Shown here: one piece after another, positions 35,476-41,539 of the stretch
Numbering within the stretch: position 1 is the first letter of the stretch
Layout of the letters: each line of letters starts with the position of its first letter
Assembly (NCBI GenBank): GCA_021404785.1
Contig: QWHH01000002.1
Span: 124,001 to 188,000 of the forward strand
Length of the DNA: 64,000 bases
Reading direction: 5' to 3'
From: Lysobacterales bacterium PRO7
GTDB lineage: Bacteria; Pseudomonadota; Gammaproteobacteria; Xanthomonadales; Rhodanobacteraceae
The notes under the pieces: generated by a model
Told to the model about the DNA's origin: nothing
What the model saw: only the letters and a program-made list of their open reading frames with translations
Databases searched by the model: none
Translations under genes and position numbers: made by a program

Positions 35476-36552
35476 ATGCGTCATCCCTTGAAAGCGCCAA
35501 AATTCCTCACCGCCCCGCCGGAAGAGGAAGCGCGCAATTGCGCCGCCGTGATTCCCACCACGGTCCTCGCCGTTCTCGCGCAGGTCGCAGACGAACAAGG
35601 CATCGCAGTCGATCCCTGGCTCGCCGGAATCGGGCTCAAACGCGATCAGATCGATGCCGCCGCGACGCGGATTTCCTATCGTCAGGCGGTGACCATCATC
35701 CGCCGCGCCCTGCGCGCCATGCCGGATGCCGACATCGGCCTGCGCGTGGGTTCGCGCCAGTCGCTCGGCACATTTGGCGTGCTCGGCTTGGCCATGCTGA
35801 CGCAGCGCACGTTCGGCGAAGCGATGGCGATCGGCATCGAACACCACCCGATAAGCGGCGCGCTGATGGACCTGGAGTTCGAGGCGCTGGACAACGGCGA
35901 CGCCGCATTGATTGCGCATCCGCGTGCGTCCGCCGACGCTACGCTGCCGTTCTTGTGCGAGGAACTCTTCGCCAGTTCCCTGGTGCTGTGCCGCAGCCTG
36001 CTCGGTCCCGGTTTCAAGCTGGCACGCCTTGAATTGACCTACCGCGAGCCGGCCTGGTCGGCCGAGTATCGCCACCTGTTCCGCTGCGAAGTCCGTTTCG
36101 GCGCAGCGCATAACCGCGCCGTCGTCGATCGGCAATGGATGGGCATGGAATTGCCCACGCACCATCCGGTCAGCGCGCAGCAGGCTCTGGCCATCTGTCG
36201 CGAACAAGCGGCCAGTCTGGAGCGCCAGAGCGACGTGGTCGCGTCGGTCGAACGCATGTTGCGCCAGCGCTTGCGCGAACACCCGCGACTGGGCGATATC
36301 GCCTCCGGGCTGAACTTGAGCGAACGTACCTTGCGGCGTCATCTGGCGGCCTGCGGTCAGGTTTTTCGCGAGATCCACGACCGCATCCGCACCGAACGCG
36401 CGCTGGAGCTGTTGCAAGCCGGCGTCTTGCGCATCGGCGAAATAGGAACCGCGGTCGGCTACAGCGATCCGCGCGAATTCCGGCGCGCCTTCAAACGCTG
36501 GACAGGCGGACCTCCGCGAGCGATGCGCCCGCCGCGACACCAGGCGCAATGA
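35476..36552 (+). CDS. AraC family transcriptional regulator (OruR/ArgR-like)
   Basis: A 358-residue regulator. The N-terminal part (about 35-210) matches the Arabinose_bd/OruR-type ligand domain (GLRVGSRQSLGTFGVLGLAMLTQRTFGEAM). The C-terminal AraC DNA-binding domain has two helix-turn-helix motifs (about 260-350: LGDIASGLNLSERTLRRHL and GEIGTAVGYSDPREFRRAFKRWTG). It lies 102 nt ahead of a lipoprotein-cytochrome-receptor gene set on the same strand and is the obvious candidate regulator of it. The ligand is unknown. The start has no strong ribosome-binding site. Confidence 0.92.
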   Translation: MRHPLKAPKFLTAPPEEEARNCAAVIPTTVLAVLAQVADEQGIAVDPWLAGIGLKRDQIDAAATRISYRQAVTIIRRALRAMPDADIGLRVGSRQSLGTFGVLGLAMLTQRTFGEAMAIGIEHHPISGALMDLEFEALDNGDAALIAHPRASADATLPFLCEELFASSLVLCRSLLGPGFKLARLELTYREPAWSAEYRHLFRCEVRFGAAHNRAVVDRQWMGMELPTHHPVSAQQALAICREQAASLERQSDVVASVERMLRQRLREHPRLGDIASGLNLSERTLRRHLAACGQVFREIHDRIRTERALELLQAGVLRIGEIGTAVGYSDPREFRRAFKRWTGGPPRAMRPPRHQAQ

Positions 36553-36654
36553 CCGATTCGCCCCCCTTTCTTGCCCGCTTCGCCCTCGTCATGGACACCG
36601 GTTGCCGCTGCAATTCACGTTTCGCGCACACGCGCGACCCGGGAGGTGGGTGAC

Positions 36655-39080: not shown

Positions 39081-41539
39081 TTCCGACCCAACGCACGCTT
39101 GTCGCCCACCTGCGCTCGGCGCTGTTGCATGGCGCCGCCTTGTCCCTGCTCGGACTCGGTGCGCCGGTGCTGGCCAATGCGCAGTCCGCCGATGCACAGG
39201 CAGATTCCGCCACCGCGGCGAAAAAAGACGCGACCGCGGCGCAACTCGGCAACATCACCGTGACCGCACAGAGCCGCACCCAGCAGGTGCAGGAAGTGCC
39301 GATCGCCGTGCAGGTCGTGACCGCACAACAGATCGACACGCTCGCTGCCACCGATCTGTCGAAGATAAGCATGTACCTGCCCGGCGTTTCCGTCAGCGGC
39401 GACCAGCCGACGCAGCCCTACTTCAGTATTCGCGGCATCGGCACCGGCGACTTCGGCATCGGCACCGACGCACCGGTCGGGGTTTACGAGAACGGCATCT
39501 ACATGGGCAAGTCCGGCGGCGCGCTGCTGATGTTCAACGACATCGATCACGTCGAAGTACTCAAGGGCCCGCAGGGCACGCTGTTCGGCCGCAACAGCGC
39601 TGCTGGCGCGATCTCGGTGGCAACGAACGCGCCTGCCGATGCATTCGAAGCGAACGCGACCATGCGCTTGGGCAATTACGGCGAACGCTACGTCGATGGC
39701 GTGTACAACACGCCGATCGGCAATGACCTGGCCTTCCGCATGAGTTTCGTGGACAACCAGAGCAACGGCTGGCTGCGCGACGCCGACACTGGCCAGCATT
39801 TCAACAAGAACGACGACTGGGGCACGCGCATGCAGGTGCAATGGAACGGCCCCGCCGACTCCAGCGTCAACTTCGCGTGGGAACACGAACGCCTCAAGCA
39901 ACCGCCGCGCCCGACCATCAACGTATCGCCGATACCAGCCTATCCGGAACTGCCGTCGACCACGCCCGACTACCCGAACTACCTCGACCCACGCCATGCG
40001 CCGTTGTACAACAACGTCACCGATGGCGGCGAATCGCGTACCTACGATTCGTTCGCGCTGCGCATCGAGCATCCGTTGGCGTTCGGCGATTTCACCTCGC
40101 TGACGTCATTCCAGCGCTTTCACACCTACAACCGCGAAGCGCAGGCAGCCACCAACCTCGCCTACCTGTACTTCGACGACACCAACATCGAGCGGCACAA
40201 GACCTGGTCGCAGGAATTCAAACTATCCGGCAAGACGGATCGCGCCGACTGGGTTGCCGGCGCAAGCTGGTATCGCGACGACGGCCGCCAGTCCAGCCAG
40301 ATCAATTTCCTCACCGACACGATCGACACGCTGCTCAACAATCTCGGCATTGCGCCGGGCGGCCTGTACGGACCGATCACCGGCGCGTTACAGGGCATGG
40401 GCTTGCCGTTCTCGCTGTTGAACGATCCGTGGCGGGAGAGCATGGACAACCGCAATACAGCCACGGCCAGCGCGGTTTACGCAGACGTGATCTGGCATCT
40501 CACGGACCGGCTCAACCTCACGACCGGCGCGCGCTTTACCCACGACGAGCGTGACTTCAGTTGGTACGAGCCGGCGCGTGTCGCGCCGCAGCTCGACGCG
40601 ACGCTGGCACAGTTGCAGGCGGCGGGCATACTCGACGCGCTCGGCATTCCGATCCAGACGTTCCAGCAGAACATCTATTTCACCGATCCGTCGGTGCAAG
40701 ACCATCCCGGCGGCTTGAATCGCAGCTGGACGGACACCAGCCCGCGCATCGTGCTCGACTACAAGCTGTGGCCTGACATGATGCTCTACGCCTCCGCCGC
40801 CAAGGGCTACCAGGCCGGCGGCTTCAACGCCTTCGAGGTCGGCTCGGTGTACAAACCGCAAATCGTGCGCAGCTACGAGGCCGGCATCAAGAGCTATTTC
40901 GCCGACTACAAGCTGCTGTTCAATGCATCTGTATACTATTATAAATATTCCAACCTGCCGAACCTGACCCTGGTCCAGAATGGCGCCGGCAACGGCGGCC
41001 TGCCGCAATACCAGATCCTGCCGAGCGATCAGGAAGCCAAGGGCCTCGAATTCGAGGCACGCTGGCAAGCCACCGAAAGCCTGCGCCTGAACGCCGCCGC
41101 GGCGTGGATCAACCAGACCTACAGCAACTACACGACCTCGGCTGGCGTGAGTCTCGACGGCCAGGCCACCGGCTTGCCCTATCTGTCCGCCACGCTCGGC
41201 GCCGACTACGTCGTGCGCAACGTCGCCGGCGGCAGCCTGGACTTCACCCTGCAAGGCGCCTACACCGGCAAGGGCCGCTGCAACTCGGATTCGCAGCTGC
41301 AAGGCACCTGCGTCCTTGCCACGACGTTCAAGCTCGGCGGCAGCCAGGCGCGCGCGGATTTTCACGTCGGCTGGTCCTCGCCCGACGTGCCGTGGAGCGT
41401 CGCCGTGTTCGTGAACAACGTGTTTGACGTGCAATACGTCACCGGCCTCAACAACATCGTGACCAACGTACTCGGAGTGACCAGCGCCGGCATCACCGAG
41501 CCACGCATGTGGGGCGTCGAGGCGAGCTATCGCTTCTGA
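39077..41539 (+). CDS. TonB-dependent receptor
   Basis: An 820-residue outer-membrane receptor. A signal peptide (cleavage near VLANAQSADA) is followed by a plug domain (about 55-165, NITVTAQSRTQQVQEVPIAV, FSIRGIGTGDFGIG, VEVLKGPQGTLFGRNSAAGAI) and a 22-strand barrel ending in the typical aromatic strand EASYRF. No N-terminal STN signalling extension is present. The gene overlaps the diheme lipoprotein gene by 4 nt. The substrate is unknown; neighbours suggest a ligand handled by the beta-helix and heme lipoproteins. Confidence 0.93.
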   Translation: MIPTQRTLVAHLRSALLHGAALSLLGLGAPVLANAQSADAQADSATAAKKDATAAQLGNITVTAQSRTQQVQEVPIAVQVVTAQQIDTLAATDLSKISMYLPGVSVSGDQPTQPYFSIRGIGTGDFGIGTDAPVGVYENGIYMGKSGGALLMFNDIDHVEVLKGPQGTLFGRNSAAGAISVATNAPADAFEANATMRLGNYGERYVDGVYNTPIGNDLAFRMSFVDNQSNGWLRDADTGQHFNKNDDWGTRMQVQWNGPADSSVNFAWEHERLKQPPRPTINVSPIPAYPELPSTTPDYPNYLDPRHAPLYNNVTDGGESRTYDSFALRIEHPLAFGDFTSLTSFQRFHTYNREAQAATNLAYLYFDDTNIERHKTWSQEFKLSGKTDRADWVAGASWYRDDGRQSSQINFLTDTIDTLLNNLGIAPGGLYGPITGALQGMGLPFSLLNDPWRESMDNRNTATASAVYADVIWHLTDRLNLTTGARFTHDERDFSWYEPARVAPQLDATLAQLQAAGILDALGIPIQTFQQNIYFTDPSVQDHPGGLNRSWTDTSPRIVLDYKLWPDMMLYASAAKGYQAGGFNAFEVGSVYKPQIVRSYEAGIKSYFADYKLLFNASVYYYKYSNLPNLTLVQNGAGNGGLPQYQILPSDQEAKGLEFEARWQATESLRLNAAAAWINQTYSNYTTSAGVSLDGQATGLPYLSATLGADYVVRNVAGGSLDFTLQGAYTGKGRCNSDSQLQGTCVLATTFKLGGSQARADFHVGWSSPDVPWSVAVFVNNVFDVQYVTGLNNIVTNVLGVTSAGITEPRMWGVEASYRF

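Follow-up and report, generated by a model that had tools for sequence, protein, structure and literature searches.

A beta-helix and diheme cytochrome lipoprotein pair next to a TonB-dependent receptor: a putative periplasmic redox system in a Lysobacterales bacterium

The genome of Lysobacterales bacterium PRO7 carries a run of four forward-strand genes that raises the question of what an AraC-family regulator, two lipoproteins and a TonB-dependent receptor could accomplish together. The run lies in a stretch of 64,000 nucleotides (positions 124,001 to 188,000 of contig QWHH01000002.1; hereafter the window) and was proposed in an initial annotation to form one coupled unit. The regulator (358 aa, 35476..36552) is followed by a parallel beta-helix lipoprotein (411 aa, 36655..37890), a diheme c-type cytochrome lipoprotein (396 aa, 37890..39080) and the receptor (820 aa, 39077..41539); the ORF coordinates bear out this order, as well as the proposed overlaps of 1 nt between the beta-helix and cytochrome genes and of 4 nt between the cytochrome and receptor genes, and they place between regulator and lipoproteins a 102-nt gap (36553..36654, plus strand) that is the likely site of a regulated promoter. 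The claimed lipobox cysteines were also found on reading the sequence, Cys16 in the beta-helix protein (LVAAC, 36700..36702) and Cys19 in the cytochrome (LLAGC, 37944..37946). Our own gene caller put the starts of both lipoprotein genes later in the window; we preferred, as in the initial annotation, the ATGs farther upstream, from which both products begin with a lipobox signal peptide. The window's neighbouring genes were named by eye, as were recG, MscS, transposase, PutA, TetR outside locus L087 and the neighbours in loci L151 and L200.

The co-occurrence of the two lipoprotein families, TIGR03805 (parallel beta-helix domain protein) and TIGR03806 (SO2930 family diheme c-type cytochrome), had been noticed earlier; the families have curated names, but a literature search of titles found no described function. 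The assignment of both window proteins to them had been set beforehand as a test that could refute the initial reading, and it survived, since both exceed the curated cut-offs. The beta-helix protein matches TIGR03805.1 (beta_helix_1) with 431.4 bits against a cut-off of 141.5 (E 1.8e-129, profile positions 1-314), and in Pfam it matches PF13229 and PF05048. Residues invariant in three alignments (A2, 25 rows; A3, 57 rows; A6, 18 rows, of which 16 are of a divergent CCP-linked type) fall on successive repeats, namely D167, Y171 and G173, then E193, E195 and N196, then N210 and F217, and this most conserved patch (37153..37308, plus strand) is a candidate active or ligand site; Cys, His and Met do not occur among the residues invariant in all three. 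The cytochrome matches TIGR03806.1 (chp_HNE_0200) with 395.6 bits against 313.3 (E 1.5e-118, profile positions 2-314) and no Pfam family at E 0.001. It carries two CxxCH haem motifs, CAGCH at residues 205-209 (38502..38516) and CSHCH at residues 284-288 (38739..38753), whose Cys, Cys and His (C284, C287 and H288 in the second) are invariant in alignments A1 (27 rows) and A4 (49 rows), with H286 invariant in A1 and 98% conserved in A4. Met354, in an MMPE motif (38949..38951), is besides the start the sole methionine invariant in both alignments, and is likely the axial ligand of haem 2. Two PDB relatives of the cytochrome were discarded: cytochrome c555, whose score was summed over a three-fold repeat with each piece at an i-Evalue above 1, and c552, which matched at 0.11-0.13.

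Across genomes the two lipoprotein genes keep close company. A TIGR03805 protein lies beside, or is fused to, TIGR03806 in all 25 genomes with an over-cut-off TIGR03806 in a phylum sample of 299, and the beta-helix gene is directly upstream of the cytochrome gene in 78/78 assessable named loci (80 in all, two of which start at the cytochrome). The intergenic distance has a median of 9 nt, and the genes touch or overlap in 27 of these 78, with starts taken from our own gene caller; among the 78 loci that show both, a regular expression found a lipobox-like motif on each of the two proteins in 66. The window's pair shares with other pairs of these families the scores above cut-off, the adjacency and the order, and adds to them a receptor gene coupled by overlap and an AraC gene upstream. 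As judged from these genomes, the lipoprotein pair is the near-obligate core of the unit.

Eight beta-helix/cytochrome fusions and 20 fusions of TIGR03806 to a glucose/sorbosone dehydrogenase (GSDH) domain are new in this analysis. The former are single ORFs found in two sets of five and three, three of the first five being under the TIGR03806 cut-off. In the latter, all distant proteins (3 + 17) and under that cut-off, the cytochrome domain stands behind the GSDH domain (PF07995, the family of soluble PQQ glucose dehydrogenase), which Pfam confirmed in 10 of 10 tested among the 17; the window's cytochrome, in contrast, has as its partner a beta-helix protein without PF07995 in Pfam, and not a GSDH propeller. 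A G-x-R-N motif, presumably PQQ-binding, is present in all 20, and a His motif was found in 14 and not in the other six. In a cytochrome tree of 69 rows the GSDH-fused rows are all on one side of a branch with support 93/85. One GSDH fusion compared with the PDB gave as best match the hedgehog-interacting protein, which is non-enzymatic, and soluble glucose dehydrogenase next (E 2.4e-18). A common cytochrome module does not prove that its other partner is a dehydrogenase.

The receptor has the Plug (PF07715, 76.1 bits) and barrel (PF00593, 114.6 bits) domains of a TonB-dependent receptor. A siderophore receptor was considered and rejected, as TIGR01783 gave 161.5 bits, under its cut-off of 223.5; no siderophore-synthesis gene was noticed by eye among the window's ORFs. 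The regulator combines an N-terminal sensor domain (Arabinose_bd, PF12625, 146.8 bits) with HTH_18 (PF12833, 62.6 bits), both over gathering scores, which makes it an AraC-family member; it is under the cut-off of every NCBIfam model matched, the best being QhpR (NF049968, 157.5 against 250).

The four-gene cluster is not a chance arrangement, because it was found again in four more genomes of the order within the phylum sample (L040-L043), with the AraC gene divergent there and on the same strand in the window, and in a same-genus genome with 66% (AraC), 80% (beta-helix), 72% (cytochrome) and 78% (receptor) identity. Within the window's order, 32 of 34 over-cut-off TIGR03806 genes have a receptor match within about 300 nt downstream and a 33rd receptor is interrupted by a contig end, 33 of the 34 having been examined; counted by genome and ignoring kinship, receptor and pair are both present in 33, one alone in 5 and neither in 212. 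The suggestion that all four genes form one coupled unit thus suits this lineage and, repeatedly, a few others, while most pairs elsewhere are without an adjacent receptor; the second refuting test set beforehand, a receptor that varies freely, gave a divided outcome, as there is no such free variation inside the order. With our profile, a receptor lies within three genes of the pair in 24 of the 80 named loci and was not found in 56, nor in 21 of 26 phylum-sample pair loci (29 minus the GSDH fusions L057-L059), some loci ending at a contig edge. Pseudomonas, Duganella, Microbulbifer and most alphaproteobacterial pairs show no adjacent receptor in the stretch examined, and a Dyella locus (L063) has the AraC gene and the pair with a receptor 7.5 kb off. 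Receptors are nonetheless concentrated near the pair: in the named loci they account for 25/435 genes within three of it versus 1/439 farther away, for 8/336 versus 0/347 when 18 Xanthomonadales-like loci are removed, and for 6/171 versus 0/235 in the phylum sample, the three GSDH-fusion loci included. One of these three, L058, is among the six with a near receptor. Fisher values of this analysis were 1e-35, 2.7e-7 and 0.005, kinship being ignored. An earlier profile, seeded by pair-adjacent receptors, had given 26/80 named and 8/29 phylum-sample loci; the final one was reseeded from receptors away from pairs, mostly kin of the window's receptor, so that the count favours that kind, and it no longer recovered L032, L046, L125 and L129, the receptor of L046 being confirmed by Pfam. 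Receptor and regulator are tied to the pair more loosely than the lipoproteins are to each other.

A second arrangement, also new in this analysis, combines receptor, AraC gene and beta-helix with a non-homologous diheme enzyme of the MauG type. In 16 loci, probably of Alteromonadaceae (family f4), a TIGR03805-like beta-helix protein with a C-terminal CxxCH of its own has for its neighbour a diheme enzyme of the CCP_MauG type, which scores 186 bits and counts cytochrome c peroxidases and MauG among its relatives in the PDB; a TonB-dependent receptor is present in 15 of the 16 and an AraC gene in 12. The clustering of these four components is as in the window; the diheme protein, however, belongs to another family, the beta-helix has the haem motif and only 29% identity to that of the window, and the cluster also includes a cytochrome c gene.

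The genes around the pair hint at an aliphatic or aromatic alcohol or aldehyde, or a lipid, rather than a siderophore, with a carbohydrate as the alternative. An aldehyde dehydrogenase gene directly follows the receptor gene in 8 of the 80 named loci and in L060 lies between receptor and beta-helix, the family having been tested in three of these nine receptor-adjacent cases. Only the receptor-adjacent ones were counted, the blast cluster that contains them (c359) being a mixture of aldehyde dehydrogenases, PutA-like proteins and another dehydrogenase (L104); its PutA-like proteins lie upstream of the AraC gene in Dyella/Rhodanobacter. The homologue in the window's genome is on a different contig among apparently unrelated neighbours. 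A FadL gene is immediately upstream of the beta-helix/cytochrome fusion in L054. A 'lipid operon' was nevertheless rejected, since the FadL genes of five named Dyella/Rhodanobacter loci run on the opposite strand (family tested in one) and in L031 several genes separate the Lipase_bact_N protein from the fusion. Two loci (family f38) have an alpha/beta-hydrolase cluster after the cytochrome, the family having been tested in one, which is a hint only.

The sequences establish the families, gene order, near-obligate pairing, fusions, GSDH swap and receptor/regulator recurrence; we infer which way the electrons flow, that the beta-helix binds the substrate, and the parts played by transport and regulation. 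In the reading that we favour, with a probability of roughly 0.4, the beta-helix and diheme lipoproteins would constitute a periplasmic redox enzyme that in this lineage is receptor-supplied and AraC-regulated. The receptor would carry the substrate over the outer membrane, the beta-helix lipoprotein would meet it, the TIGR03806 domain would accept its electrons and hand them to a c-type chain, and the AraC protein would switch the operon on once the substrate is sensed. With TIGR03806 as an electron-acceptor module and the beta-helix in the dehydrogenase's place, periplasmic substrate oxidation is predicted, this being the likelier direction because of the dehydrogenase-domain swap and the fusions; the aldehyde dehydrogenase gene that follows in several relatives would suit a product that is an aldehyde or derives from an alcohol. 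It is a doubtful extension that TIGR03805 could represent a new oxidoreductase class on a right-handed beta-helix, swappable with a PQQ-type dehydrogenase before TIGR03806, with a MauG-type partner in f4 and TonB-fed in several lineages. Against a redox role for the beta-helix speaks that, to our knowledge, no oxidoreductase with the TIGR03805 fold has been described.

Other explanations read the same components differently. The combination of secreted partner, diheme protein and TonB receptor recalls MbnP/MbnH and MbnT (TIGR04052/TIGR04039), a likewise TIGRFAM-defined pair that also occurs as isolated pairs near MbnT-like receptors and whose role was termed unclear in 2013 (PMC3621798). By analogy, the diheme protein would modify or load the beta-helix, which would then bind a metal, copper or another, that the receptor brings in; the CCP_MauG enzyme of f4 and the match of the beta-helix to PF05048 (NosD, named periplasmic copper-binding protein; 54.5 bits against 23.6) speak in its favour. 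We consider it unlikely, as searches with the window proteins at E 0.001 returned neither TIGR04039/TIGR04052 nor CCP_MauG, the NosD model TIGR04247 reaches only 44.8 of the 300 bits of its cut-off, the invariant beta-helix residues offer no Cys, His or Met, and the GSDH fusions are left unaccommodated. It is similarly improbable that the lipoproteins form a general periplasmic redox pair with no transport role, receptor and regulator being lineage-specific hitch-hikers: the many pair loci without a near receptor would agree with this, as would the Pseudomonas loci, where the genes beside the pair, radical SAM among them, have no obvious connection to it, but the near/far contrast of receptors persists outside Xanthomonadales-like loci, AraC and receptor recur in the different diheme context of f4, and receptor and pair are jointly present or absent in the order (kinship ignored).

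A beta-helix acting on carbohydrate, as a PL6-like enzyme or a binding protein whose sugar product the cytochrome oxidises, appears very improbable to us. Its PDB profile matches, BcAlyPL6 (a PL6 alginate lyase, E 0.008) and a fructotransferase (E 0.017), point that way but are weak and at the edge of significance; TIGR03806 does occur with glucose/sorbosone dehydrogenase, CBM26, F5/8 C and ThuA domains, whereas glycosidases and lyases are absent among the pair's few annotated neighbours. Relatives of the window's receptor adjoin glycosidase genes (GH1 in L148; L151, identified by eye), and the ligand class is thus not fixed by the receptor family.

Taken as a periplasmic redox enzyme, the pair is suggested by the domain swaps to be a small redox machine, one half of which would meet the substrate while the other carries the electrons. 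Through the exchange with GSDH the cytochrome acquires a concrete role that can be tested, namely electron transfer as a module, and the exchange also suggests that a beta-helix can form the half of a redox enzyme that faces the substrate. That receptor, AraC regulator and beta-helix occur again together with a diheme enzyme of unrelated origin suggests, in turn, a general scheme of import and periplasmic redox chemistry that may reach beyond the methanobactin systems.

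The genes of the putative lipoprotein operon lie on the plus strand, an AraC-type regulator (35476-36552; Arabinose_bd and HTH_18 domains) preceding, by 102 nt, a beta-helix lipoprotein (36655-37890), a diheme lipoprotein (37890-39080) and a TonB-dependent receptor with plug and barrel domains (39077-41539). This arrangement had been claimed in the initial annotation, and our analysis bore it out in its details: the beta-helix and cytochrome genes overlap by 1 nt and the cytochrome and receptor genes by 4 nt, while the lipobox cysteines are at residues 16 (beta-helix) and 19 (cytochrome). 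The family assignments also hold, the beta-helix protein scoring 431.4 bits against TIGR03805 (curated cut-off 141.5) and the cytochrome 395.6 bits against TIGR03806 (cut-off 313.3). A sequence search for solved relatives of the cytochrome returned none that was credible, and the beta-helix gave only weak profile matches to solved structures, namely a PL6 lyase and a fructotransferase. By eye, the operon is flanked upstream, on the opposite strand, by thrS, infC, rpmI, rplT, pheS and pheT, and downstream by the gene for an M14-type peptidase of about 900 residues, which matched no NCBIfam model at E 1e-20. Elsewhere in the window, three plus-strand genes at 22324-26758 look like a small 2-hydroxy-acid catabolic cluster: an FAD-binding dehydrogenase (457 bits, under the cut-off of 476), a member of the FMN-dependent L-lactate dehydrogenase family (478.6 vs 376) and an acetolactate-synthase-like ThDP enzyme (PRK07586; 805 vs 363). 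At 456-4546 lie neighbouring genes for two proteins of 673 and 678 residues that look secreted; they belong to one blast cluster and are, by eye, M13 peptidases.

Of the 299 genomes in a phylum sample, 25 have a TIGR03806 match over cut-off and 29 a TIGR03805 match over cut-off; none of 14 control genomes has either. The beta-helix adjoins or is fused to the cytochrome in all 25 TIGR03806 genomes, the window included, and TIGR03806 is present at the locus in 27 of the 29 TIGR03805 genomes (under cut-off in 2 of these 27), being absent from it in the remaining two, G126 and G234. We also examined named loci, the best 80 of 582 confirmed stretches from a genome-contig scan and biased to close relatives, where a beta-helix gene lies directly upstream of the cytochrome in 78, the other 2 stretches starting at the cytochrome. 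The intergenic gap, measured from gene-caller starts, has a median of 9 nt, with 27/78 pairs touching or overlapping and 55/78 separated by 50 nt or less. One locus, L031, carries a second, stand-alone TIGR03806 copy (6597-7703) near a fused one, and the ORF between the two resembles a transposase by eye.

In five phylum-sample loci both proteins form one chain of 872-1000 residues matched by both models, TIGR03806 being under cut-off in 3 of them. Three further distant TIGR03806 matches each lie behind a glucose/sorbosone dehydrogenase (GSDH) domain, PF07995. A search of 321 genomes of the class gave 25 sub-cut-off TIGR03806 matches in frames of at least 700 residues; by profile search, each of the 20 retrieved had exactly one of the two partners, GSDH in 17 and the beta-helix in 3. 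Pfam found GSDH in all 10 submitted of those 17, and a G-x-R-N motif is present in 20/20 GSDH fusions, with a His motif found in 14/20. One tested fusion aligns to soluble PQQ glucose dehydrogenase (E 2.4e-18), its best PDB match being the non-enzymatic hedgehog-interacting protein. In a 69-row tree of TIGR03806 domains a single branch (support 93/85, present in 91% of the bootstrap trees) sets all 20 GSDH-fused rows apart, and beta-helix loci account for 47 rows in another part; L175 and L176, the last two rows, represent distant TIGR03806 proteins adjoining a single-CxxCH protein, at loci where no beta-helix was found. The GSDH-TIGR03806 fusions (L201-L220, L057-L059) are probably quinohaem dehydrogenases. 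Many genomes in the class to which the window belongs have such fusions, and the longest seen also bear CBM26, F5/8 C or ThuA domains.

The beta-helix proteins of G126 and G234 pass TIGR03805 (182 and 181 bits), bear their own C-terminal CxxCH and have as gene neighbours a diheme enzyme of the CCP_MauG type and one more c-type cytochrome. Relatives were found at E 1e-20 in 43 of 147 members of the family of these two genomes, f4, probably Alteromonadaceae; of 20 f4 loci retrieved, 14 are of CCP type and each of the other 6 has TIGR03806. L173 and L174 bring the CCP-type set to 16, and the CCP proteins of this set can be aligned as a single family. A TonB receptor is present in 15/16 (12 same strand, 3 divergent) and an AraC gene in 12/16, the usual order being receptor, AraC, cytochrome c, CCP_MauG and beta-helix. 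The conserved cluster spans L174:559-8032 and occurs also in L178-L191. Thus, the same functional set recurs with a diheme protein from a different family. Both beta-helix types share, without exception in three alignments, residues D167, Y171, E193, E195, N196 and N210, numbered as in the window.

The initial annotation had taken regulator, pair and receptor as one coupled unit, a claim that stands only in part: a receptor recurs within three genes of the pair in 24/80 named loci, and not in most. With a profile seeded from receptors away from the pair and near defined as within three genes, receptors per gene numbered 25/435 near vs 1/439 far in the named loci, 8/336 vs 0/347 without the 18 Xanthomonadales-like loci, and 6/171 vs 0/235 in the phylum sample, where a receptor is near in 6/29 loci, or in 5/26 pair loci once three GSDH fusions are removed. 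Among 250 genomes of the window's order TIGR03806 exceeded cut-off in 34 and the receptor was found at E <=1e-80 in 37; as raw genome counts, uncorrected for relatedness, 33 have both, 1 the cytochrome alone (G406), 4 the receptor alone and 212 neither, and several genera include some members with both and others with neither. The receptor match lies about 300 nt or less downstream of the cytochrome in 32/34, and in G540 (L158) a receptor start after the cytochrome is interrupted by the contig end. Therefore, the receptor is a recurrent, non-obligate partner of the pair.

The window's receptor family lies directly downstream of the pair in 17/80 named loci (one ending at a contig end, and L084 in two frames), from Dyella, Rhodanobacter, Dokdonella, Luteimonas, Stenotrophomonas, Pseudoxanthomonas, Arenimonas and two MAGs. 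In the Dyella locus L063 it is 7.5 kb from the pair; in L060 the order is AraC (reverse), receptor, aldehyde dehydrogenase, beta-helix and cytochrome; in the alphaproteobacterial L087, L095, L115 and L096 it is one gene further on (in pieces in L096), behind a reverse-strand TetR-like gene (family tested in L087). Of the 80 stretches, 16 include a relative of the window's AraC (>150 bits), encoded in reverse in 8 of them. In L064, L066, L067, L069, L070, L072, L074 and L076 the gene after the receptor encodes an aldehyde dehydrogenase of about 430-470 residues, as it also does in L161, in L162 and, with no pair present, in L149; in L060 the enzyme precedes the beta-helix. Its best NCBIfam match in three tested is benzaldehyde dehydrogenase MdlD (241-321 vs cut-off 550 bits). 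It is absent beside the operon in the window genome and a same-genus relative, the window genome encoding a homologue (52%) elsewhere. By eye, recG follows the receptor in the loci of Luteimonas, Pseudoxanthomonas and Arenimonas and in one from Stenotrophomonas. Five Dyella/Rhodanobacter loci have FadL as an opposite-strand neighbour; in L054 it lies upstream, on the same strand, of the beta-helix/cytochrome fusion. At L148 and L149 a receptor with 59% and 52% identity, respectively, to that of the window stands without the lipoprotein pair, next to GH1 and MFS-like genes in L148 and to the aldehyde dehydrogenase in L149; by eye, both clusters hold an alanine-racemase-like and an FAD-linked oxidase-like gene.

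The TIGR03805 and TIGR03806 families and their names are already known; paper listings from the openly accessible literature showed us no functional work on the two together, and to our knowledge there is as yet no description of the dehydrogenase swap, of the MauG-type variant or of the receptor statistics. Two main rivals must be weighed. The operon could be a metal system of the MbnP/MbnH kind, a secreted partner and diheme protein encoded near TonB receptors, with which it has its layout in common (PMC3621798), although the sequence families differ. The receptor could, on the other hand, merely travel along with the pair in some lineages.

In the cytochrome, Met354 suggests His/Met ligation of one haem, judging from sequence; the haem 1 segment has no invariant Met or His beyond its CxxCH, H227 reaching 78% in the 49-row alignment, so this haem may have either a second ligand or an open site. 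Since the partner joined to TIGR03806 is either a dehydrogenase-type domain or TIGR03805, TIGR03806 would serve as an electron-acceptor module and the beta-helix would be the part that meets the substrate; the receptor's role would be to deliver that substrate, and the AraC protein's to sense it.
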